From Terasakiella brassicae (lineage in GTDB: Bacteria; Pseudomonadota; Alphaproteobacteria; Rhodospirillales; Terasakiellaceae), in the NCBI RefSeq assembly GCF_014641495.1, contig NZ_BMHV01000001.1:1-64000 (forward strand): a DNA stretch of 64,000 nucleotides, given 5' to 3'. Under the pieces are notes generated by a model. The model was not told the origin of the DNA. It ran no database searches and saw only the letters and a program-made list of their open reading frames with translations. Both the position numbers and the translations under genes were made by a program. Below, in pieces: positions 6,777-58,089 of this stretch; position 1 is the first letter of the stretch, and every line of letters starts with the position of its first letter.

Positions 6777-9700
6777 ATGAATTTCTTTGACAAGGGCAAT
6801 CCAGAAAACGGGGATACACGCGTTGCAGATTACGTGGTGGATTCAACAAAGGCTGAAGTCAATCTCCCTCCCTCTTTCAATATTGCAACGGTGCAGTTTG
6901 ATCGGGCTGGTCCCGACCTGATTGTGACGTCGGCAGATGGGGAGGCAATCCTCGTCACCAATTATTTTGCCTCAGGTTCCCAACCCGCAATCACTTTGCC
7001 AAATGGTGTGGTCTTGCCCGCGCACATCGTTCATAAACTTGCTGGACCCATTGCCCCCAAACAATTTGCACAGGTTGGACAGGCCCAAGGCCTTGAGCCC
7101 ATTGGCAAGGTTGAAACGGCGGATGGTCAGGTTGAGGCTGTTCGTGCAGATGGTACCCGCGTTACCTTAAAAGTCGGGGATCCGGTTTTTCAAGGGGATG
7201 AACTTGTCACAGGCGGTGACGGGGCGGTCGGTATCGTATTTGCCGATGAGACGACATTTGCCCTTGGTGAAGATGGACGTATGCTTCTGGACGAAATGGT
7301 TTATGACCCGGGGGCGCAAGACGGTCAGATCGGCTTGACGTTATTAACCGGGGCGATGACATTTGTATCGGGTGCTGTTGCGAAGGTGAACCCGGATGCC
7401 ATGCAAATCACAACACCGGTTGCGACAATCGGTATTCGTGGTACCGCAGGCGTTCTGAAGGTTTCCGGTGAAACTCTTGATGCTGTCATGTTGCCTGAAT
7501 TGGCAGGAAACGGCGAGGGCGTTAGTCCGAACCAAGCCAATAATGGTGGGGCGACAGGTGAATTTATTATCACCAATAACAACGGTGATGTGATTACAAT
7601 TAACCAGCCTTTCCAAGGGGTGACGAGTACACCAAACGGGAATTCGGCACCCCGCGTGTTCACGATGAACGAAATCGGGGCAATGGCGGGTAAAACGCTG
7701 AGCAGCCTTCCCAATGCAGAAAATCTGTTACCGCCAGCTATTGTTGCTGCCGCGACAAACCAACCGGGAAATGAGCAACAGCAGTTGAACCCGGAAGATG
7801 TGTTGGTCGATAACAATACGGCAGATGCTTTACAAGAAATTACTCAGCAGACGCAAAGCACATTGTCTAATTTGAGTGTATCAGCGGAAATTGCGAAAAT
7901 AGCGGTTCAAAAAATTGCGCAAGAGGCAGATGATCGCGCGGCTAACATTGTCGAGAAAATTATTAGTGACAACGCAACGGTTATTGAACAAGCACAAACC
8001 TTGTTACAGGTGACGGATAACGCATCAACCTTGTCTTCTCGGGCTTCCCAAATTGAAAATACGGCAGGGACAAATTCCGGTGCAAAAGACGTTGAAACCA
8101 ACGCGCAACGGATTTCTGTGGAATGGACTTCGGACACGACCGATAAGCTTGAAGACAGTGTAGACAATGTTGCAGAAGCATACGCAACAGCAAACTCAAT
8201 TGGTGCAATCGCAACAGGTGTATCTGATTTTGCATATGTTGTTGCAAGAGGCTTGAAATCGTTTGCAGATCCCGCAGCCGTTGTTGAATTGGTTAGCCAG
8301 GTCGATAACACATTGGCGGATGCGTTGAATGAGGCGGAATATATCGTCTCAGCCATGACGGTTGTACAGGACGCGAATTCAAGTAATCCTGACCTGAGCA
8401 TGTCAGTCAAAGACCGCATGGTTGAAGCGGTTATTCGGGCCGCTAAATTCGTCAAGGACAACGGTGGTACTGATCTTGAAGCCATTGATTTTGCCCGTGA
8501 AGTCGTTGTGAGCGGTGTACCTGCCAATGGGCAGATGACGTTCAAAGGGATAACTGGCGATGTTTATAAATTTTATGACGGCATCAAGACTGAATTGAAT
8601 AATGCGCTGGCCTTTAGCGGTCATGCGGACGCGTTTACCAACCTTGATAGCAAGCTAAGCACGCTGAATGACTTGTTTGTGTCTTTAAAAGCGGTGGAGT
8701 TTAAGAATGGCTCTGCATTTGAGGCTAAATGGGAGTCGGTTGTTGATGAACTGCTGGCCTTGACCAGTTATACGCAAACGGCGGCCACAAAGGCAAAAGC
8801 GGTTGTCGATGCCAGTACAATCAACGATATGGATCAGGCCGCAACGGATGCTGCAGCAGCTCAAACAAGTGCGAATAGCAAAGTTCAAGACAGTGCTTTT
8901 AATAATTTAATGAATGAAATGGGGGCGTTGGTCGGGAGCAATGCACCAAGTATAGTTTTATCGATTGCAGACCAGTTTTTGTCGAAGGCGAGTGATGCTG
9001 AAACCGCCACATTTTCCGGCAATAATACTGTTTTGACTTTCTTTAACCGGATTCAAAAAGATATTCTTGAAAATGAACAAGCCGGTATGAAAGTGACGCA
9101 AGCCGATATTGACGCGGCAACCACTCAGTTAAATGAAGTTAATAGTGACCTCGTTGCATCCAAAGCGGATCTGTCATTGGCGCAAACGGCATTTAATAGC
9201 GCATCCACTGTGTTGTCCAGTGCTGCTGATAATGTGGTCAGCGCCTTAATTGCGTTTAAATCAGCCGAGGCAAAACGCGATGTCTATATTGCGGGTGCTG
9301 AAAAAATCAATGACGGGACGCTTTATAACGGCAGTGATCATTTTAAGGTGGTTGATGGTGAAGGCATTGATGGTTTGCAGGAAGCAAAAGATTTTGTTTC
9401 TTACCAGCAAACGCAACTTTCATCCCAAGAAACGATATATAACGATGCCGTGACGGCATTGAATAACAACCCCGGTGATGTCGCGCTTGCACGTGTCGTT
9501 CTTGTGGCTCAACAGGCTGTAAATAAATATAAAACCCTGATTGAATACGGCAATAAACTCGTTGAAACTTGGCAAAATTCTTATGATACGGCGCTCGATA
9601 AGGCAAATAGTTATTCATCGACGGCTGCAACCCTGCAAAACGATCTGACACAGGCTGAAAATGCAGAACAAACGGCCCGTCAAAATTTGTTGGCGAAGCT

Positions 9701-12700
9701 GGAAGATTTCATTACAGCACAGGAAGATGTGTCGAATGAAAGTAAACTCTTAGCGGTTTTTGAATCCAAGCTTGCCGCCCTTGAAGCCCGTGCAGTTCAG
9801 GAAGCAAAGATAGATTTGGACGATGCTTTCAGCGATGCGCGTGCCTTGCTGGACGAGGCCTTGGCCCAAGCAAAAATTGCGTCTGACAAGGCGATTGAGG
9901 CCGATCAAAAAGTCCTGTTGACCAAAGCGGAAAGTGATCCGACTGCACGAGAAACACTTTTAAGTGACGCGCAAACCATTTTGGCAGAGGCTGAAACGGC
10001 GAAAAATGCAGCCAAAAACGCATTTGATTATTTCTCTGTCGATAGTGCCAATAGCACGAATGATAACGTTCTGGCGCGTGCCATTGATGTGCGTGATAAC
10101 TATCCCCGTCCGCCCAGCGAAATCGATCAGGTTATTTCCAGCATGCAGTCTTTGCAGACTTCGGCAGAAAGTGCTTATAACGAGGCCTTAAAACAGTTTG
10201 AAACGGCTGGGCATTCGGTGGATATTATTCAGGCGATTGTCAATAATGATGCAGCGGCACAAGCGGCGGCGGAACAGGCCGCACAGACGGCGGCAGATGC
10301 CGCGAAAACACAAGCTCTGCAAGCGGCGTTGGAAAAAGCGCAAGCTGCAGAAAAAGATATCGCAGCTGCCCTTCAGGAAGCACAAAACCTGAAATCGGGT
10401 GCGGATGTCATTGCCCAAAATAGCGTGGGAACCAGCGAGCAAACGAACGCAGCCAATCAAGCAACCGTTGTTCATAATGAATATGATCAGATTGTGGCCA
10501 AACAGGTCCTCGTAGGCGGTGATAGTAACACAACAGGTTTGGTGGAACAGGTACAGGCCGCACAAGCCGCCGGTAATCTGGATTTAGCCCGTAGTTTGGC
10601 AGAAACGGCACAAACTTACGCCAAAGATGCAATCGCGATTGTCGAAGGAACGACCCTGACAAATGGCTTGCGTTATACGATTACGACGACAGCGAAAAAT
10701 GTCATTACTGCGATGGAAGGTCAGGTAGGGGGCCGTGAAGTTAATAGTGATGGTGTTGAAACTCGTACTCTTGTTGATAATGTTGAAGTCAGCAGTCGTA
10801 CGGGGTTCTTGAAGTTATCAGCGGACCAATTAGACGTTGCGAGAACGGAATACAGCAAGGCTTACGCCAATGAAAATGATACGACAGCAGGAAATGGTGT
10901 CGAAAGTGTATTGGAGTTATTCACACCATCTGCCGGGCAATCCATTGTTTCTGCCATTTTGGCGGCAGAAGTTACCGCAGACGAGCTCAGTGAATTTGGT
11001 GGAACGGATATTGCCGGATACATTCCGCTTTATACACGTCTTGAGAATTTAAAAGCCGCTGTCTCACAAAGCCTTACAGATGCAAATGATAGTTTGACCT
11101 TGACCCAAAGTTATGCGTCTGATTCTGCCAGTCTTGCGGAAAAAGCACGTGCCGTACTGGATGCGGCAAATATGAAAGGTACAGATTTTACGACCTTTGC
11201 GTCCAAAGTGGATACGATGGGTAAAGTATCCGGGATGATTGCGGATGAAAGCGGTAAAATATCGGCCGCCGCTCAGCGTATTGAACAAATACAAAAAGCC
11301 CTGGATTTGTATGACAAGTTGTGGGATGCCCGCGTACAGGCTGCGAAAAATGCAGCAGATGCCAAGGCCGCCGCAGAAACAGCAGCACAACAGGCAAGCG
11401 ATGATGTGTTGGCAGAACAACAGCGCCGGGAAGAACAGAAACAGGCCGAAGATGCAGCCGCGACAGAGCAAGCCAAGGATTTTCACGATACGGCTTTGGC
11501 GGAACGTGATTTGGCATCGCGCGCCAATGACAAGGCGCAGGAAGCAGCGATTAACGGGGATCAGGAAAGTGCAAGCCAGTATTTGAGCGAAGCGCAAACC
11601 CATACAGCCAAAGCTCAATCTGCGGCATCGGCGGCAACAGATGCGGCATCCGGTCATGGGGAAACGGCGGAAGACTATGCTGAAGATGCGCGTGAGTATT
11701 ACGAAACCGCCAGCGGATACGTTGGGGATGCCAAGGCGGCGGTTAGTGCAGCAGGGGATGCAACGACGGCGGCCAATAATTGGCGCAGTGGTGCAGCAAC
11801 AACGGCGCGCATTCAGGCAGAAGCCGATAAAGCACAGGCGGTAAGCAACGAGAGTGCAGCCGATACGGCTCTAACCAATGCGTTGACGAAACTGACGTCG
11901 GCGCGCACCGCACTGAGCGGCGCAGAAGTGGATAATGCCTCTGCACAAGCGGCTTATAATAGTCTGGTTGAATCTGAAAAAACCGCCAAAGACAAAGCCG
12001 CTGCAATTCTAGCGGAAGTTGGCGGTGATACGGATAATGTCATTTATCAGGCGTGGGAAGCTGCCTATCAGGCTGCTGTTGATGCAACAAAAAATGCGCA
12101 AGAAGCCGCGAATGATGCAGCCCAAGCCTTAAGCGATGCAACCAGCCGTGTCAATGTCGCACAAACGGCATATGACAGCGCATTCAGTGCCGCTGAACAA
12201 GCGAGTGAACAATTGGCAAATGCGGTATCAGACGCTGCATTTGCATCTTCATCCGAACAATTGGGTCGCGCTGTTTCCGAAGCGCAGGTCGAGTATCGAT
12301 TGGCGACATATCACAGTGAACTCGATAGCGCCCTGTCGAAAATCGAGACAGAAAAGCAGGATGTGAATACGCTTGCAACAACTGCGGCACAACATTCCAA
12401 GGATGATAACGAGTTCAATCAGTCTTTAGTGCAAAATGCCTATGATGACCCGAACAGCACAAATGATGCTGTCGGTGCTTTGGGGGATGCGCAAACTGCA
12501 AAAACAAGCGCAGATACGGCATTGGCGAATGCACAACAGGTTTTGGCAAATTATCACGTGGATATTGCCGCTGCGAACGCTGATATTTACAATGATGATA
12601 CGCATACGATTAAGGACTTTAACGTCTTTAATAATGATGCGACATGGGTGAAAATTGATGCAACGACAGTTATCCACAGTTCGACTTTTGAAAAATATAA

Positions 12701-49822: not shown

Positions 49823-50833
49823 ATGACACAATCGAATTCGATTGATACCCGACAAAACAAAATTGTCGGATACTGGTTGTTTTGTGTTGCAGCTATGGTT
49901 TTTATTATGGTTGTCCTCGGCGGCTTAACCCGCCTGACGGGGTCGGGATTGTCGATGGTCGATTGGCGACCGCTTACCGGATGGTTGCCGCCGTTTGCAA
50001 ACGGTGAATGGCAACAGGTCTTTGATTTATACAAACATTCACCTCAGTACAAAGAAATCAATTTCGGTATGACTTTGGCGGAGTTTAAGGAAATCTTCTG
50101 GCTGGAATATTTCCATCGTTTGTGGGGGCGATTGATCGGTTTGGCCTTTGGCTTACCGCTGGTCTTTTTCTTCCTGCGGGGATGGATTTCACGCGAGATG
50201 CGTTTGCCGCTTTTTATCCTGTTTTTGCTGGGCGGGGCGCAAGGGGGGCTGGGCTGGTATATGGTCAAAAGCGGTTTGATTGATGAACCGGAAGTCAGTC
50301 AATACCGCCTGATGGCGCATCTTGGGTTTGCGTTTGCCTTATATGGTGCCTTGCTTTGGTGTGGTTTTAAGTTTGTAAAAGAAAAATCGCTAAGGGCGCG
50401 TGGGCGTTTTCGACGACAAAGCCGATTATTATGGGGATTAAGTTTCTTAACCATCCTTGCCGGGGCATTGGTTGCGGGATTGGATGCCGGGCTGACCTAT
50501 AATACCTTTCCTTTGATGGATGGGGATTTGGTGCCTGACGGATTGTTTATGCAAGACCCGTGGTGGATCAATCACTTTGAAAATATTACGACTGTGCAAT
50601 TCCAGCATCGTGTCTTGGGTATAACAACCTTGTGCTTTACCTTATGGATATGGGCAACAAATACGCCGTGTCTACAGACAAGACTTTGTACTGTTGTTGT
50701 TCTGTTGCAAGTGATTTTAGGGATTGCGACATTGTTGCATATCGTTCCCGTTTCGCTGGCATCCCTGCATCAGGCTGGTGGTTTAATCGTCTTTAGCGCG
50801 ATAACGTGGCTGAACTACGAAATAAAAGGGTGA
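49823..50833 (+). CDS. ctaA: Heme A synthase (CtaA/COX15)
   Basis: 336 residues, eight predicted membrane helices. It has MVVLGGLTRLTGSGLSMVDW near the start, FWLEYFHRLWGRLIGLAFGL (heme-ligand His), and VQFQHRVLGITTL and SLHQAGGLIVFSA (second-half heme ligands). It is the proteobacterial COX15 type that oxidises heme O to heme A. It is part of the oxidase operon, 9 bp after DUF2189 and 3 bp before DUF420. Confidence 0.95.
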   Translation: MTQSNSIDTRQNKIVGYWLFCVAAMVFIMVVLGGLTRLTGSGLSMVDWRPLTGWLPPFANGEWQQVFDLYKHSPQYKEINFGMTLAEFKEIFWLEYFHRLWGRLIGLAFGLPLVFFFLRGWISREMRLPLFILFLLGGAQGGLGWYMVKSGLIDEPEVSQYRLMAHLGFAFALYGALLWCGFKFVKEKSLRARGRFRRQSRLLWGLSFLTILAGALVAGLDAGLTYNTFPLMDGDLVPDGLFMQDPWWINHFENITTVQFQHRVLGITTLCFTLWIWATNTPCLQTRLCTVVVLLQVILGIATLLHIVPVSLASLHQAGGLIVFSAITWLNYEIKG

Positions 50834-50836
50834 TAC

Positions 50837-51268
50837 ATGGATATTCTGGATTTTTTGCCCCATTTTCAGGCCTTTTTAAATGCGACGTCGTTAATCCTGA
50901 TTTGTTTTGCTTTTGGGGCAGTCAAATCAGGTCATACGATCCGTCATAAACAGTTGATGGTTTCGGCTTTGGCGGTTTCCGGTGTCTTTCTTGTTTCTTA
51001 TTTATATTATCACGCCCATGTGGGCCATGTGCCTTTCGAAGGTCAGGGCATTGTTCGCCCTATATATTTTACCATTTTATTTACTCATATTGGTTTTGCC
51101 GCCCTTGTTTTGGTAATGATTATTATGGCGGTGTGGCGGGCTTTGGTGCGTAAGGATTTTGTCGCACATAAACGAATTGCGCGGATTACCTTTCCCATTT
51201 GGGTGTTTGTCTGTTCATCCGGTATCGTTGTTTATGTCATGGCGTTTCATATCTACGCGAAGGTTTAA
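50837..51268 (+). CDS. DUF420 membrane protein
   Basis: 143 residues, four to five membrane helices, with histidines at helix ends (GHTIRHKQLM, YYHAHVGH, FTHIGFAALV, DFVAHKRIAR). DUF420 belongs to the CtaM-like group encoded with heme-copper oxidases and is thought to help cofactor assembly. No ctaG/COX11 gene is in this operon, so this protein or SCO may cover copper delivery. It lies 3 bp after ctaA and 6 bp before the subunit-I-like gene. Confidence 0.85.
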   Translation: MDILDFLPHFQAFLNATSLILICFAFGAVKSGHTIRHKQLMVSALAVSGVFLVSYLYYHAHVGHVPFEGQGIVRPIYFTILFTHIGFAALVLVMIIMAVWRALVRKDFVAHKRIARITFPIWVFVCSSGIVVYVMAFHIYAKV

Positions 51269-51274
51269 CCGATT

Positions 51275-52579
51275 ATGACGTTGAAGCAAGAATGCAAAGC
51301 ATGGACAATTTTGTCAGTTGGCGCTTTGGCGATTGCGGGTGTGTTTGCCTTGTTGTTGGTGTTGTCACGCACACCTTATGTGCAGGATCTGTTACCTTGG
51401 CCGTGGACGTCTTTCTTTCATAAGGGATTGGTGGTTCACGTTATTTTTTCGTTTGTCGTTTGGTTCTTGGCAACGATGGGGGCCGTTTTCACTCATCGGC
51501 TGGTAAAGCATCAAGCGGAACAAACATTCACGAAACTAGGGCCAGTGAGTATCGGCCTTGCGGTTCTTGGCTGTGTTTGTCTGATGATCCCGGCTTTGTT
51601 TGATTTGGGAACGGCTGAACTTAACAATTATGTGCCTGTGATGAACCATCCGATTTATTATGCGGGCTTGATCTTCTTGTTTCTTTCGTTAGCGCTTGTT
51701 TCTTTACGTCAGCTCAGGCTGCTTGATGCTTCTGCTTGTTGTGCGTTTATTTATCTGATTGCTTGTATTTGTTTTTTACTGGCATGGTACGCGTTACCCG
51801 CCGAATTGGCAGAACCCAGTTTTAATGAACAATTGTTCTGGGGTGGGGGGCATATTCTGCAATTTGTTAATACGGCCTTGCTGGTACTCGTTTGGTCTGC
51901 TGTTGTTAAAAAACGACTGATTGAGGGACCATATGAATGGGCAGTTTTTGGCATCTTGCTTGTCTTTGCGGGCAGCGGGCCATTTGTTTATATGTTCAGT
52001 GATATTTTAAGTCAGGCAAACCGTGATTTTTATACCGCCTTATTGCGCTATGGCTTGCCGCTGCCTTCTGTTATTGCCAGTGTCTTTTTGATACGTTTTC
52101 TTTTGTTTGAACAGAACGAACATAAAGACCGCTTGATGGCAACGGCCCTGTGGCTGTCACTCCTGACCTATAATCTCGGCGGCCTTTATGGCTTGTTTCT
52201 GGATGGAACCGATACCCGCGTACCGGCGCATTACCATGCGGTTATCGGTGGGATAAATCTGGGGTTCATGATTTTTTATCACCGTATTGTTCTGCCATTC
52301 ATCGGTATTCATCCGGTGAATGGGCGTTGGTTGACATTGCAATATTGGTTCTATGGTTTGGGGCAAATCATGCATGCCAGCGGGATGTTTCTTGCTGGTC
52401 TGCAAGGCGTTCCCCGGAAAACAGCGGGTACGGCACAAGGTCTTGATAATATAGATAAAATTTTGTCTATGGGGCTGATGGGCATTGGCGGGTTGATTGC
52501 TGTTGTTGGGGGCGTGCTTTTTGTCGTTATGACCCTGAACTGGATTGTGAAGGGAGGGCGCATTCATGAAACGGCATGA
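51275..52579 (+). CDS. Heme-copper oxidase subunit I-like protein lacking the CuB His pair
   Basis: 434 residues, about 12 membrane helices. Recognisable subunit I landmarks are H55 (VVHVIFSF, low-spin heme ligand), H193 (GGGHILQF, where CuB/TM6 His lies) and H319-x-H321 (AHYHAVIGG, TM10 heme ligands). HASGMFLAGLQGVPRK matches the LGL-GMPRR region near the C-terminus. The TM7 His-His that completes CuB is missing: the aligned stretch reads GSGPFVYMFSDIL. It may be a divergent NO/O2 reductase or a non-catalytic heme subunit. It overlaps the next gene, a CuA protein, by 14 bp, so the two probably form a complex. Confidence 0.8.
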   Translation: MTLKQECKAWTILSVGALAIAGVFALLLVLSRTPYVQDLLPWPWTSFFHKGLVVHVIFSFVVWFLATMGAVFTHRLVKHQAEQTFTKLGPVSIGLAVLGCVCLMIPALFDLGTAELNNYVPVMNHPIYYAGLIFLFLSLALVSLRQLRLLDASACCAFIYLIACICFLLAWYALPAELAEPSFNEQLFWGGGHILQFVNTALLVLVWSAVVKKRLIEGPYEWAVFGILLVFAGSGPFVYMFSDILSQANRDFYTALLRYGLPLPSVIASVFLIRFLLFEQNEHKDRLMATALWLSLLTYNLGGLYGLFLDGTDTRVPAHYHAVIGGINLGFMIFYHRIVLPFIGIHPVNGRWLTLQYWFYGLGQIMHASGMFLAGLQGVPRKTAGTAQGLDNIDKILSMGLMGIGGLIAVVGGVLFVVMTLNWIVKGGRIHETA

Positions 52580-53015
52580 TTACGCGATCCTTTCGTTAAT
52601 TGCACTTGTTGCGCTTTTCTTTGGATATCAACTTGCATCCAGTTTTGGGAAGACGCAAAAGAATGTCACATACCGTGCGATAGAAAACTGGTCTGATTTC
52701 AACAATAACGCCAACACGCAATCACCCGATGATGAGGATATCTATCTGATCGCGCGCCAATGGGAATGGTCACCCGTATTGGAATTAAAAGCGGGACAAT
52801 CGTACCTCCTCCACGTTGCCAGCGAAGATATTCAACATGCCTTTCATTTGGAAAAGGGCGCAACGGGACAATCAATTGACGTTCTGTTACAACCAAAAAC
52901 CGAATACATTATTCCCTTGAAAATTGAACAAGAAGGCCAATATGCCATAGGGTGCACGCAATATTGTGGAATTGAACACAATAAGATGCGTAGTCGTATA
53001 ATTGTACGTAAGTAA
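52566..53015 (+). CDS. Short CuA-domain subunit II-like protein
   Basis: 149 residues: one N-terminal membrane helix (about 6-24) and a cupredoxin domain. CuA ligands are visible: His in EDIQHAFHL, then CTQYCGIEHNKM (C-x3-C-x3-H-x2-M, with Gln at the usual Glu position). The ARQWEW motif matches the aromatic patch of subunit II. Length and layout are like the short subunit II of B-type (ba3-like) oxidases. It overlaps the subunit-I-like gene, and a separate full-size subunit II lies downstream. Confidence 0.88.
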   Translation: MKRHDYAILSLIALVALFFGYQLASSFGKTQKNVTYRAIENWSDFNNNANTQSPDDEDIYLIARQWEWSPVLELKAGQSYLLHVASEDIQHAFHLEKGATGQSIDVLLQPKTEYIIPLKIEQEGQYAIGCTQYCGIEHNKMRSRIIVRK

Positions 53016-53123: not shown

Positions 53124-53984
53124 ATGGGAGGATACTTTCAATTGGCGAAGCCTCGTATTGGGGTTATGATCGCCTTGACGGCAGTGACCGGCTATCTTGC
53201 GACGGTGGCGCCGGGTGAGATTAATTTGTCTCATCTTTTGGTGTTAAGTCTCGCAATGATGATGGGCTCTGCTTCTTCCAGTATATTCAATCATTTCTAC
53301 GATAGAGATATCGATCGACTGATGAAACGGACCTGCCAGCGGCCTTTTGCTGTACGCAGTGTCGCCAGTCCTCAGCTCGTACTTTGGATTGCCGCAAGTT
53401 TGCTGGTTTTTGGCTGTGCTATGGCCACTTATGTTTTTAATCCGACTGTTGCCGCGCACCTCTTTTTGGGTGCGTTTTTTTATGGGGTTGTGTACACGAT
53501 CTGGCTGAAACGGCGCAATTGGTTAAATATCGTCATTGGTGGTTTGGCTGGCAGTTTTGCCGTGTTGGCAGGCGCTGCGGCCGTTAACCCGGATCAATGG
53601 TTTTTGCCGATGTTACTGGCGATTGTCCTGTTCTTCTGGACACCGTCACATTTCTGGGCCTTGGCAATGCGTTTGAAAGACCAATACGCTGCGGCCGGTG
53701 TGCCGATGTTACCCGTTGTCGTCGGCAACGTACGGACATCGCGCTATATCTTAATTAACAGCCTTTTGCTGGTTTTTTCCAGCTTGTTACCTTGGTTCTT
53801 GGGGGAACTTGGGAACATTTACGGCATCGGTGCCTTGGCACTGGGTGTCTACCTTTTGCGATGCAACTGGGCCTTGATAAAAGAGCCGGACGAGAAAACG
53901 GCCATGACCAACTTTTTTGCATCTATGAAATATCTGGGGGGGCTTTTCCTTGTCGTCATAATGGATGTTCATCTTCCTCTGTAA
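53124..53984 (+). CDS. ctaB: Protoheme IX farnesyltransferase (heme O synthase, CtaB)
   Basis: 286 residues with eight to nine membrane helices of the UbiA superfamily. The prenyl-diphosphate motif NHFYDRDIDRLMKRTCQRP (N-x3-D-x3-D) is present, as is the second motif region FFWTPSHFWALAMRLKDQY. It converts heme B to heme O, the substrate of CtaA. Family members often keep a longer N-terminus; this one starts directly before helix 1 (MGGYFQLAKPRIGVMI). Confidence 0.95.
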   Translation: MGGYFQLAKPRIGVMIALTAVTGYLATVAPGEINLSHLLVLSLAMMMGSASSSIFNHFYDRDIDRLMKRTCQRPFAVRSVASPQLVLWIAASLLVFGCAMATYVFNPTVAAHLFLGAFFYGVVYTIWLKRRNWLNIVIGGLAGSFAVLAGAAAVNPDQWFLPMLLAIVLFFWTPSHFWALAMRLKDQYAAAGVPMLPVVVGNVRTSRYILINSLLLVFSSLLPWFLGELGNIYGIGALALGVYLLRCNWALIKEPDEKTAMTNFFASMKYLGGLFLVVIMDVHLPL

Positions 53985-54074
53985 GGGAGGGGATGACCAA
54001 GCCGCATAAGAATAGTCAAAGACGATTTTGCCCTAAGTTTATTGGTTAAACAACGACATCTGGGAGGTAACCGT

Positions 54075-54836
54075 ATGTCGGCAGAGAGTTCACATGCACA
54101 TGAACATCATTGGGAATGGAGCCAAGCGCCATTCTGGGTGGTGGCGGGCGTTTTCTTTCTCGTCCCCTTAACATTTGCAGCCTATTTTCAATATCAAAAT
54201 CCACTTTTGGCCGCCATTTTTGCAGGTCTGGGTACGCCCATGCTTTTGGCCGGGATTGCGATGTGGGTCAACGAAGGATTGACGGTCAAACCGTTGATTG
54301 CTGACGTGGCCGGGATCGGTCTTCCGATCTTTATTATTTCTGAAATTTTTATCTTTCTTTCCTTTTTTGTCGCTTATTGGATGATGCGATTGGGGGCGGA
54401 TGTCTGGCCACCGGAAGGAACGCCGGAATTCCCGGTCACATTACCGTTGATTATGACTGTTGTGTTGCTGTCTTCGTCCGTAACCATTCATATCGCGGAA
54501 GAAAAATACGCCCATAATGATCATGGCGGTTTCGTAAAATGGCTGATTTTCACCATGCTTTTGGGGTTGATGTTTATCAGTATGACTTTTTACGAGTATA
54601 ACCACCTTTTCCATGAAGAATTTTATCCAGATACAAATGCATTTGGCACGATCTTTTTCAGTTTGACGGGCTTTCATGCCAGTCATGTGATCGGCGGACT
54701 TGGGATATTTGTTTGTGTGTTGATCCCGGCATTACGGGGGCTGACAAACAAAACGTTTATCACTTGTGCATCAATTTATTGGCATTTTGTGGATGTTGTC
54801 TGGTTCTTCGTCGTTTCTCAGATTTATTTCTGGTGA
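54075..54836 (+). CDS. ctaE: Cytochrome c oxidase subunit III
   Basis: 253 residues from ATG 54075, preceded by GGGAGG; an upstream TTG (54042) in frame is less likely. A His-rich N-terminus (SSHAHEHHWEW) is followed by seven helices. Motifs include LSFFVAYWMMRLG, FHASHVIGGLGIFVC and the C-terminal IYWHFVDVVWFFVV, which are signatures of subunit III. It is placed upstream of sco, subunit II and subunit I. Confidence 0.92.
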   Translation: MSAESSHAHEHHWEWSQAPFWVVAGVFFLVPLTFAAYFQYQNPLLAAIFAGLGTPMLLAGIAMWVNEGLTVKPLIADVAGIGLPIFIISEIFIFLSFFVAYWMMRLGADVWPPEGTPEFPVTLPLIMTVVLLSSSVTIHIAEEKYAHNDHGGFVKWLIFTMLLGLMFISMTFYEYNHLFHEEFYPDTNAFGTIFFSLTGFHASHVIGGLGIFVCVLIPALRGLTNKTFITCASIYWHFVDVVWFFVVSQIYFW

Positions 54837-54839
54837 CGT

Positions 54840-55700
54840 ATGAAGAATGTGTGTCGCATAGTCAGCGTTTTGGCGGTTACTGTGGTTTTACTGCTGGCTT
54901 TTCAATCTAATGCAATAGCTACGCAGGTTTTTCGGGTGCCTGATTCTGATATCGATCCGGAGGCCTTGCGCATTAGCGAAGCCAAAGTTCTGGGGCTAAA
55001 ACCGAAAAAAGGATTTTCCTTTTTAAATCAGGAAGGTGAGACTTTTACCTTTGACGATTACGAAGGCAAACCGCTGGTTTTGGTTTTGTCCTATTACAGC
55101 TGTGATGGCGTTTGTTCCTCCGTTAATATTGAATTGGGCGAACGTCTGAACCAACTGGAAAAGGATGGGCGCTTGAAACCGGGCAAAGACTTTAACGTTG
55201 TCACGCTGTCTTTTGACAAAAATGATACGTTGGAAACACTTGAACGTTTTAGAAAGAACGTTGGACTGGACAAGGGCGTTGCGCAAGGATGGACTTTTTC
55301 TGTCGTGCGCCCTGAAGATCGCGAACGTATCAAAGTTTTTACAGATCGTTTTGATTTTCGTTTCTTTTGGTCCCCGCAGGATAGAACATTTTACCATCCA
55401 ACGGTCTATATGATCCTGTCCCCGGAAATGCGATTGGCACGCATTCTATACGCACACGACATTGATAAAAGTGACATTGAACTCGCCGTACTGGAATCCC
55501 GAAACGGGGATTTCAAGCCCGGCGAGATAATCAATTACGCGGTCTCTTTGTGTTACAGCTACAACTACAAAGAAGGGCGCTATGTTTTCAATATTCCCAT
55601 GTTTGTGGCTTTTGGTTCGTTGTTTGTTGGCATCAGTGCCTTGGGAACATCGGTCTTTGCCTTTAAGCGCAGACAGAAGAAAAGGGAGGATAAGGCATGA
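54840..55700 (+). CDS. SCO1/SenC family copper chaperone
   Basis: 286 residues. A signal/anchor helix lies at about 5-25. The thioredoxin-fold SCO domain has the copper motif SYYSCDGVCSS (C-x3-C) and the distal His in FYHPTVYMIL. Unlike most SCO proteins it has a second, C-terminal membrane helix (about 253-274) with the basic tail KRRQKKREDK. It loads CuA of subunit II. It overlaps the subunit II start by 4 bp (ATGA). Confidence 0.92.
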   Translation: MKNVCRIVSVLAVTVVLLLAFQSNAIATQVFRVPDSDIDPEALRISEAKVLGLKPKKGFSFLNQEGETFTFDDYEGKPLVLVLSYYSCDGVCSSVNIELGERLNQLEKDGRLKPGKDFNVVTLSFDKNDTLETLERFRKNVGLDKGVAQGWTFSVVRPEDRERIKVFTDRFDFRFFWSPQDRTFYHPTVYMILSPEMRLARILYAHDIDKSDIELAVLESRNGDFKPGEIINYAVSLCYSYNYKEGRYVFNIPMFVAFGSLFVGISALGTSVFAFKRRQKKREDKA

Positions 55701-56428
55701 GGACGTTTTTAGGGAAAGCTGCAGCCCTGTCGGGTATTTTTGCAGTTGGACCCGCGTTCGCGCAAGACGAGGGGTACGAGAGAGATCCGGCAGCAGGCTG
55801 GGATCATCTCTGGCATGAAATCATTGTCGATATTACGGTGATCGGTGTGATTTTCAGCCTTGCTGCTATTTATATGGTTTGGAAGTACCGCGCTAAAAAT
55901 GAAAATGAAGTGGGAAGGGGGCCGAAGTTAACACCGGCAGCCGCCCTTGCCTGGGCTTTGATACCGGCATCCATATTTATGGCGGACGATTTTTTCCTGT
56001 CTGCGAAGGGCTGGACATTGTGGAATGACTATCGCCGTATCCCCGATGATGCCAAGGAAATTCGGGTAACAGCCTATCAATGGTATTGGGAATTCGATTA
56101 TGGTGACGAGATTGTATCTGAAGAACTCGTTGTTCCCAAAGGCCAACCGATTGTTTTGCGAATGACATCGGAAGATGTGTTGCATTCTTTGTACATTCCT
56201 GAATTTCGCGTCAAAGAAGATGTCATGCCGGGGCGGGTGACTTATGTTTGGTTTAACCCGAAAGAAACCGGCGAATACGTGCATACCTGTACGGAATTTT
56301 GTGGGACAGCGCATGCCGAGATGTACACAACCGTTCGCGTTCTGGAGCAGGACGAATATGACGAATGGTTCAATCAAATCAAGGAAGAAGCAAACGCCAA
56401 TTCCTTACCCAACAACACACAAAGCTGA
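55697..56428 (+). CDS. ctaC: Cytochrome c oxidase subunit II
   Basis: 243 residues. A signal sequence ending near AFAQDE is followed by two membrane helices (about 38-62, 80-100). The CuA cupredoxin domain has TAYQWYWEFDYG (aromatic patch), His in SEDVLHSLYIP and CTEFCGTAHAEM with all ligands. There is no fused cytochrome c domain, so an external cytochrome c is expected. It is coupled to sco by overlap and is followed by ctaD. Confidence 0.95.
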   Translation: MRTFLGKAAALSGIFAVGPAFAQDEGYERDPAAGWDHLWHEIIVDITVIGVIFSLAAIYMVWKYRAKNENEVGRGPKLTPAAALAWALIPASIFMADDFFLSAKGWTLWNDYRRIPDDAKEIRVTAYQWYWEFDYGDEIVSEELVVPKGQPIVLRMTSEDVLHSLYIPEFRVKEDVMPGRVTYVWFNPKETGEYVHTCTEFCGTAHAEMYTTVRVLEQDEYDEWFNQIKEEANANSLPNNTQS

Positions 56429-56445
56429 GGGAGGATGCACATCAA

Positions 56446-58089
56446 ATGAGCATGCAGACTTTCAAAGAATGGTTCTTTACAACAGACCATAAACGGATCG
56501 GGATCATGTATCTCATCGGGTCCATGACAGCCTTTGTGGTTGCCGGGATGATGGCGTTGTTGATCCGTCTGGAACAGTCCCAATTGGGACCAACCATTAC
56601 CGATAACCCCAATGAATATAACCAATGGCTCTATTTTCATGGCGCGGCTATGGTTCTGGCTTTCCTTATTCCGGGGTTGACCGGTTTTTTTGCCAACTAT
56701 TTTCTGCCTTTGATGATTGGCGCACAGGATGTTGCCTTTCCGCGCATTAATGCCTTTTCCATCTGGTTGTTTTATGGCGCGATTATTCTGGCGTTACTGA
56801 GCTTCGTGATCCCGGACCCGCCGGACATTATGTGGACAGGCTATCCGCCTTACTCAATCACAACGATGGGCAATACGGCTTATTATGTCTTCACCCTTCA
56901 TTTGTTGGGATTCAGTTCCGTATTAGGTGCCGTGAACTTCCTTGTGACCGTTATTTATATGCGCGCACCGGGGATTGGCTGGAACCAGTTGAATATCTTC
57001 ACTTGGACAACTGTTGCCGCGTTTGTTTTACAGCTCGTCTTTATTCCGGTTCTGGCCTCTGCCGTAACCATGTTGCTGTTTGATAAATACCTTGGGACGA
57101 ATTTCTTTAATCCTGAGGCGGGCGGTGATGTCCTTCTTTATCAAAACCTGTTCTGGTTCTATTCGCATCCGGCTGTTTACGTTATCTTTTTACCGGCAGT
57201 CGGGATCTTATTCGAAATCTTTACCACCATGTGTAAAAACCGGGTCTTTAACTATAAAGCCTGTGTTTATGGTGGTATTTGGGGCATTGTCGGGATTTCC
57301 GGCTTTGTGTGGGTGCATCACCTTTATGTATCCGGGATGCCGGATTGGTTGCGTATCGGACAAATGGTCACGACCTTGTTAATCTCGGTCCCTGTGGGGT
57401 TGATGGTCATGTCCATGTGGGGCACACTTTATAAGGCCGCGATTACGTTTAATACCGGTATGCTTTATGCGATATCGTGTTTGTTCCTTGTGTTATCGGG
57501 TGGATTGACGGGGATCCCCTTGGCCTTGACGGCGATTACGGTTCATTTGTCTGAAACGTCATTTGTCCATGCACACTTCCATTTTATCATGGCGATGTTT
57601 TCTGCCTTCGCTATGTTTGGCGGGATTTATTACTGGTTCCCAAAAATGTTTGGACGCTATGCTGATGGCAAATGGGCAACGACTGGCTTTATCCTTAATA
57701 TCGTCGGGGTTCATGTGACGTTTGTCCCGTTGTTCATCATCGGGGCACAAGGCATGCCACGGCGCTATTGGGATTACCAAATGTTCCCGCAGTTTGAACC
57801 TTATCATCAGGTGGCAACGCTTGGTGCCTTTATGGTAGCCGCTGGTATGTCGGTGACGATCCTGAACTGGATTATCTGTGCGTTCAAAGGCAAGGTTGCG
57901 CCTGAAAACCCGTGGAAATCATGTTCGTTGGAATGGACGCATGCACCGAACTGTCCGCAAGCCGGGAACTTCCCTAATCCGCCAACCGTCACGGCCGATT
58001 GGTCACCTTATGGCTATGCAGATCGTGAAGCTAATCTGAAGGCAACGACCGATCCGGGCTTTCCCGGTGCGGCAAAACCTGCGGAGTAA
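56446..58089 (+). CDS. ctaD: Cytochrome c oxidase subunit I, type A2
   Basis: 547 residues from ATG 56446 (MSMQTFKEWFFTTDHKRIG), preceded by GGGAGGA; an upstream in-frame ATG would overlap subunit II. Twelve helices. FHGAAMVLAF carries the low-spin heme His, HHLYVSGM the CuB pair and HAHFHFIMAM the heme ligands. TM6 reads WFYSHPAVYV: the YS pair instead of the GHPEV glutamate marks a type A2 heme-copper oxidase. It is the catalytic proton-pumping subunit of an aa3-type oxidase. Confidence 0.96.
   Translation: MSMQTFKEWFFTTDHKRIGIMYLIGSMTAFVVAGMMALLIRLEQSQLGPTITDNPNEYNQWLYFHGAAMVLAFLIPGLTGFFANYFLPLMIGAQDVAFPRINAFSIWLFYGAIILALLSFVIPDPPDIMWTGYPPYSITTMGNTAYYVFTLHLLGFSSVLGAVNFLVTVIYMRAPGIGWNQLNIFTWTTVAAFVLQLVFIPVLASAVTMLLFDKYLGTNFFNPEAGGDVLLYQNLFWFYSHPAVYVIFLPAVGILFEIFTTMCKNRVFNYKACVYGGIWGIVGISGFVWVHHLYVSGMPDWLRIGQMVTTLLISVPVGLMVMSMWGTLYKAAITFNTGMLYAISCLFLVLSGGLTGIPLALTAITVHLSETSFVHAHFHFIMAMFSAFAMFGGIYYWFPKMFGRYADGKWATTGFILNIVGVHVTFVPLFIIGAQGMPRRYWDYQMFPQFEPYHQVATLGAFMVAAGMSVTILNWIICAFKGKVAPENPWKSCSLEWTHAPNCPQAGNFPNPPTVTADWSPYGYADREANLKATTDPGFPGAAKPAE

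Follow-up and report, generated by a model that had tools for sequence, protein, structure and literature searches.

A subunit I-like protein of the heme-copper superfamily that lacks the CuB histidine pair, encoded among oxidase biogenesis genes in Terasakiella brassicae

The heme-copper superfamily is defined by a heme-metal binuclear centre. Two families of NO reductases (NORs) related to the B-family oxidases, gNOR and nNOR, were reportedly proposed in 2024 by Murali and colleagues. B-family oxygen reductases, such as Thermus thermophilus ba3 (1ehk/1xme/3s8f), have a cross-linked tyrosine (Tyr237) and a K-type proton path in addition to their CuB ligands; cNOR and qNOR keep the histidine pair of transmembrane helix 7 (TM7) and the FeB glutamate, and receive electrons through heme c or quinol; and the B-like eNOR combines three CuB histidines and an active-site glutamine with a CuA subunit II. 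In certain NOR types, one CuB histidine is reported to be replaced by aspartate (PMC3475470). Among the factors that build aa3-type oxidases, CtaM (DUF420) acts late: aa3/caa3 assembly depends on it at that stage, whereas heme A synthesis does not (PMC9145763, PMC4958251). A 2026 study has proposed that it acts in copper export or Cu(II) reduction, and discusses a dedicated cupric reductase as a requirement in B. subtilis (PMC13344008). Heme A synthase requires O2, yet the formyl oxygen comes from water (PMC9145763).

Here we describe a locus of Terasakiella brassicae in which a subunit I-like gene stands among assembly genes of this kind. The window, by which we mean the whole 64,000-nucleotide stretch analysed, contains in order the genes for DUF2189, CtaA, DUF420, two proteins that we call X1 and X2, CtaB, COX3, SCO1, CoxB and CtaD. 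All features placed here lie on the plus strand: CtaA, the heme A synthase (49823..50833; Pfam COX15-CtaA, E 5e-105); a DUF420 or CtaM-like oxidase-assembly protein (50837..51268; Pfam DUF420, E 4e-33); the 434-aa, subunit I-like X1 (51275..52579); X2 (52566..53015); CtaB, the heme O synthase (53124..53984; NCBIfam TIGR01473, over the cut-off); and, as context, the canonical aa3 oxidase operon COX3, SCO1, CoxB and CtaD (54042..58089), whose subunit I, CtaD, is CuB-complete (56365-58089). X1 starts 6 bp after the end of DUF420 and overlaps X2 by 14 bp. The open reading frames and motifs were found as the first-pass annotation had described them, with X1 following DUF420 and overlapping a short CuA protein.

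We found that X1 has the 12-helix COX1 fold of the superfamily. Twelve TM helices are predicted, and the match to Pfam COX1 is weak and over the cut-off (E 1e-11); X1 matched no NCBIfam model, and neither a phmmer search of the PDB with the single sequence nor a plasmid search with X1 as query returned a match. A profile built from nine relatives did match subunit I of Thermus ba3 (1ehk_A, E 4e-11), and an AF2 model built from five sequences (pLDDT 81, pTM 0.85) likewise had ba3 as its best PDB match in Foldseek (E 4.5e-8, TM-score 0.77).

In the profile alignment, ba3 residues H72, H233, H384 and H386 correspond to X1 residues H55, H193, H319 and H321. H55 in TM2 (51437..51439) and H321 form the bis-histidine ligand set of the low-spin heme, and H319 is the proximal ligand of the second, high-spin heme, the last two lying in the segment H319-Y320-H321 (52229..52237); the heme-propionate arginine pair of oxidases is represented by R381-K382 (52415..52420). 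The TM6 histidine H193 (51851..51853), equivalent to the first CuB histidine, is kept without its partners: the CuB pair H282-H283 of ba3 aligns with V238-Y239 (51986..51991), and H193 is all that is left of a three-histidine CuB/FeB centre. The first-pass annotation had claimed this same retention of the heme ligands and H193 together with a replaced TM7 His-His, and had called X1 a heme-copper superfamily variant with its own CuA subunit. We looked for a histidine pair that it might have missed at the CuB positions. The histidines of X1 are residues 49, 55, 74, 79, 125, 193, 283, 319, 321, 336, 346, 367 and 431; there is none between 193 and 283, and none inside TM7, which spans residues 219 to 240 approximately in the AF2 model. 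Because TM7 lacks histidine, no realignment can place two at the CuB site, and the description was right. X1 is, with near certainty, a CuB-less subunit I in which both heme sites are kept. From the conserved ligands we infer that X1 binds heme; it would hold two hemes and reduce neither O2 nor NO.

X1 homologues were found by contig search in Terasakiella pusilla, Caenispirillum salinarum and two MAGs. X1 proper is present in 42/60 relatives, including all five other sampled genomes of the genus, and 60 of the 398 genomes of a phylum sample contain X1 or an eNOR-type match. When 79 divergent X1 proteins were aligned, H55, Y119, W189, H193, Q196, H319, Y320, H321, R381 and K382 proved invariant (79/79), the propionate pair always being Arg-Lys. 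The first CuB histidine (238-equivalent) occurs in 0/79 and the second (239-equivalent) in 18/79, being absent from 61/79; position 239 holds Y, H, F or other residues. Moreover, the cross-linked tyrosine (Tyr237-equivalent) is Phe in 69/79, the K-channel residues are lost, and the segment containing D372 and H376, the propionate/Mg loop, is deleted in 79/79. The pattern is selective: the residues that hold the hemes are kept, and the binuclear, proton-consuming site is gone. Because this pattern is common to 79 homologues, the loss of CuB from X1 is not local decay. A widespread clade that keeps its heme ligands and lacks CuB is unexpected for a superfamily defined by the binuclear centre.

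The first-pass annotation had also suggested that another metal might occupy the active site, a proposal that the alignment does not bear out: the family has no conserved set of residues that could take over as ligands. D243 was rejected as a replacement ligand, as the position corresponds to the acidic residue found after the histidine pair in ba3 and eNOR (HHxxxD/E) and varies in X1, and an H199/H239 metal pair is missing from the X1 of the window. Positions 199 and 239 covary by lineage, with N199-Y239 in 24 sequences and H199-H239 in 18, a pairing that hints at a contact within the vacated CuB pocket.

In a quick tree with some long branches flagged, X1 forms one clade (SH-aLRT 99) whose sister group is the eNOR-like NO reductases (96); ba3 falls outside both, and X1 is likely to be of eNOR ancestry. 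X1 and eNOR share the heme ligands, the H-x-x-Q motif of TM6 and Y119-type residues. In contrast, the TM7 His-His, the glutamine at the tyrosine position, a Tyr248-type residue and an HN(T) loop are found in eNOR and are all missing from the X1 of the window, so that the eNOR set of three CuB histidines plus active-site glutamine is not there; eNOR proteins are also longer, at about 570 aa against about 435 aa for X1 proteins. Thermus ba3 is the best solved-structure match by both profile and fold, and its heme ligand positions and Arg-Arg pair correspond to those of X1, with Arg-Lys in the latter, but X1 lacks its CuB residues His282/283, Tyr237, the K-path residues Tyr244/Thr312 and the D372/H376 loop, and has a shorter C-terminus. 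X1 consequently has neither the cross-linked tyrosine nor the K-type path of a B-family oxygen reductase. With cNOR and qNOR it has the superfamily fold in common, but not their TM7 pair, their FeB glutamate or their heme c or quinol input, in place of which it has a CuA protein. X1 is thus a widespread and apparently unnamed family, set apart from eNOR, ba3, cNOR and qNOR; the variant is real, well conserved and apparently undescribed, and may overlap the proposed nNOR and gNOR families.

X2 is a one-TM, COX2-like CuA protein of 149 aa. It contains the full CuA ligand set, H plus C-x3-C-x3-H-xx-M, as H91 (52836..52838; invariant in alignment A3) and C130-x3-C134-x3-H138-xx-M141 (52953..52988). 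In the PDB it is matched best by CuA domains of the ba3 type, and its tree places it among the eNOR CuA subunits, apart from the aa3 CoxB proteins (99), giving X1 a partner from the eNOR subunit II clade. Taken together, the two subunit trees trace the X1-X2 pair back to an enzyme of two subunits that resembled eNOR. The pairing noted in the first-pass annotation stands for the window but not as a rule of the family, since it is clade-restricted: a dedicated X2 accompanies X1 in 8/42 X1-bearing relatives, namely the genus, G344 and G770, and is missing from 34/42, ten of the 42 having no match to X2 or eNOR subunit II at all.

We surveyed 83 X1 loci, which are related to each other, so that the counts are not independent, and some of which lie on short contigs. 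CtaA or CtaB lies within 250 bp of X1 in 40/83, and CtaA, CtaB or DUF420 in 49/83; no catalytic oxidase or eNOR subunit I was found within that distance in any of the 83 loci. The arrangement differs by lineage: DUF420-X1-CtaB in the taxonomic order, an overlapping X1-CtaA pair in the f189 lineage, and divergent X1/CtaA in other families. Among 60 relatives, 57 have either both X1 and DUF420 or neither (both in 40, X1 alone in 2, DUF420 alone in 1, neither in 17; Fisher p 8e-12, ignoring kinship), and all 35 X1-bearing genomes that are 90% complete or better contain CtaA. The aa3 operon comes in two types in the genus, COX3-SCO-CoxB-CtaD (window 54042-58089, L007, L101) and CoxB-CtaD-Cox11-COX3 (L006, L008), suggesting operon exchange at the same locus, and the block CtaA-DUF420-X1-X2-CtaB is unchanged beside both. 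X1 therefore has the DUF420 partner, the CtaA/CtaB neighbourhood and the co-occurrence of a CtaM-linked assembly module. It shares with the CtaM pathway of B. subtilis and S. aureus the adjoining, co-distributed DUF420 and the CtaA/CtaB neighbours, but the firmicute systems are described without an X1-like partner (PMC9145763, PMC13344008). X1 was also considered as a substitute for Cox11, which inserts CuB, and rejected: the two are not anticorrelated (p 0.24).

These data lead us to propose that X1 is a catalytically dismantled, two-heme 'pseudo-oxidase' that most likely serves aa3 or heme A biogenesis and is not a terminal reductase, a reading to which we give a probability of roughly 0.45 and for which linkage and co-distribution are the basis. 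X1, together with DUF420/CtaM and the heme O and heme A synthases, would serve the assembly of the heme A-containing aa3 oxidase, its hemes passing electrons within the assembly machinery as a redox or heme relay. Heme A synthase oxidises heme O, and one option is that the X1 hemes accept electrons from that enzyme; a second is that they donate electrons for the handling or loading of copper. In the genus, the CuA site of X2 could connect X1 to periplasmic cytochrome c for the exchange of electrons, and most relatives, which are without X2, would need another electron partner. With no CuB to bind, H193 may serve as a ligand to the second heme and so render it low-spin and unreactive to O2 and NO. 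Put together more speculatively, an unnamed branch of the superfamily may have given up gas reduction, kept two hemes, perhaps both six-coordinate by way of the old CuB histidine, and become a redox partner in oxidase maturation, to or from CtaA or in copper loading with DUF420/CtaM; we hold this fuller version only tentatively. If it is true, both the electron acceptor for the conversion of heme O to heme A and the role of CtaM/DUF420 become directly testable.

Several findings run against a biogenesis role. The intact CuA partner in the genus resembles a respiratory input. X1 and DUF420 are both missing from several aa3-bearing relatives (e.g. G267, G705, G751, G774), which means that aa3 does not depend on X1 in general. 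Most of the f189 lineage, in which X1 and CtaA overlap, has no DUF420, and in the order X1 and nitrite reductases tend to be found together. A single such role is also at odds with X1 genes that adjoin eNOR clusters carrying a cytochrome b/4Fe-4S protein, and with TPR-fused paralogues far from oxidase genes.

The first alternative is that X1-X2 is still an enzyme: a reductase of NO or another small molecule, derived from eNOR, fed by cytochrome c through CuA and working at a remodelled site made up of the high-spin heme, H193 and second-sphere residues. The grouping of both subunits with eNOR, the intact CuA site and the invariance of H193 and Q196, which are common to eNOR, would all fit. The host genome moreover contains (contigs C13, C6, C26 and C10) cNOR, qNOR, a cbb3 oxidase and the cytochrome cd1 nitrite reductase, nirS, and the host is a probable denitrifier; a weak association of X1 with nitrite reductases appears across the order when genomes of 90% completeness or more are compared (p 0.04). 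However, no convincing nirS or nirK was seen in any of the five other members of the genus that were sampled, and all five keep X1-X2; a tie of X1 to denitrification was rejected on this ground. The host is already supplied with two NORs. The TM7 pair, the active-site Gln/Tyr, the K-channel and the propionate/Mg loop are gone from the X1 of the window and from nearly all relatives, with no conserved ligand in their stead, and the absence of X2 from most X1 genomes argues against a terminal reductase driven by cytochrome c. We consider this alternative unlikely. The NO reductase-like character proposed in the first-pass annotation is thus upheld as ancestry and not as catalysis: since the Tyr/Gln, K-channel and propionate/Mg elements were lost together, catalysis of the NOR or oxidase type by X1 is unlikely as judged from its residues. 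Neither 'oxidase' nor 'NO reductase' is a suitable annotation for X1, and genome surveys that count X1 genes through Pfam COX1 may wrongly enter them under one or the other.

X1 could instead be a purely electron-transferring, two-heme respiratory cytochrome, for example from quinol or cytochrome c to aa3, with no part in assembly. Both heme sites are kept, CuA offers an entry port in the genus and in the f189 lineage, and in other clades X1 adjoins a protein of the cytochrome b / 2[4Fe-4S] / FlpD type. Yet most X1 genomes are without the CuA partner, and the genes lying nearest to X1 encode heme O/A synthases and DUF420, not subunits of an oxidase or bc1 complex. An electron-transfer partner of the aa3 oxidase, as had been suggested before, is possible, but the genomic evidence favours oxidase or heme A biogenesis, and we regard the purely respiratory role as improbable.

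A membrane heme sensor of O2, NO or CO, or a site that stores heme A or heme O or transfers it toward CtaD, would account for heme pockets that outlast the machinery of turnover, for the adjoining CtaA and CtaB, and for TPR fusions that could signal or act as scaffolds. We think it quite unlikely: the X1 of the window has no output domain, deep burial and conserved Arg/Lys contacts to the propionates suggest permanently bound hemes, and the CuA partner is left unexplained. The loss of residues on which the superfamily normally depends might suggest that X1 is a pseudogene in decay, or an artefact of annotation, but the conservation data refute this: its reading frame is intact in all five other sampled genomes of the genus (6/6 including the host), it is under purifying selection much as its neighbours are (pN/pS 0.32-0.34 for X1, 0.31 for CtaA and 0.26 for DUF420, rough values as synonymous sites are near saturation), and 79 homologues have the same kept and lost residues.

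X1 also occurs in other settings. In several loci (L089:8554-10113 and 10637-12619, L092:7581-9164 and 9390-10997, L130, L132) it adjoins fusion proteins composed of cytochrome b, two 4Fe-4S units and an FlpD/MvhD-delta part, which in L089 and L092 also adjoin eNOR clusters and are often accompanied by a 167-aa membrane-anchored protein; they are possibly an unrecognised electron-transfer complex. In L103-L108, L112 and L113 there is a second paralogue of X1 that has a long extension at its C-terminus, the extension being confirmed as TPR repeats in L103; the genomes concerned mostly carry a plain X1 as well, and no oxidase genes lie near these paralogues. With X1 standing beside eNOR clusters and occurring as TPR fusions, the core has been reused, and a single function may not hold for every clade. 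Elsewhere in the phylum, a very divergent X1-like protein (L109:5676-6974, genome G709) was placed with low confidence. Finally, in family f209 an ABC-2 type transporter pair, ATPase and permease, lies directly downstream of X1 (L087:6513-8230, L088:8200-9923, L127-L129).
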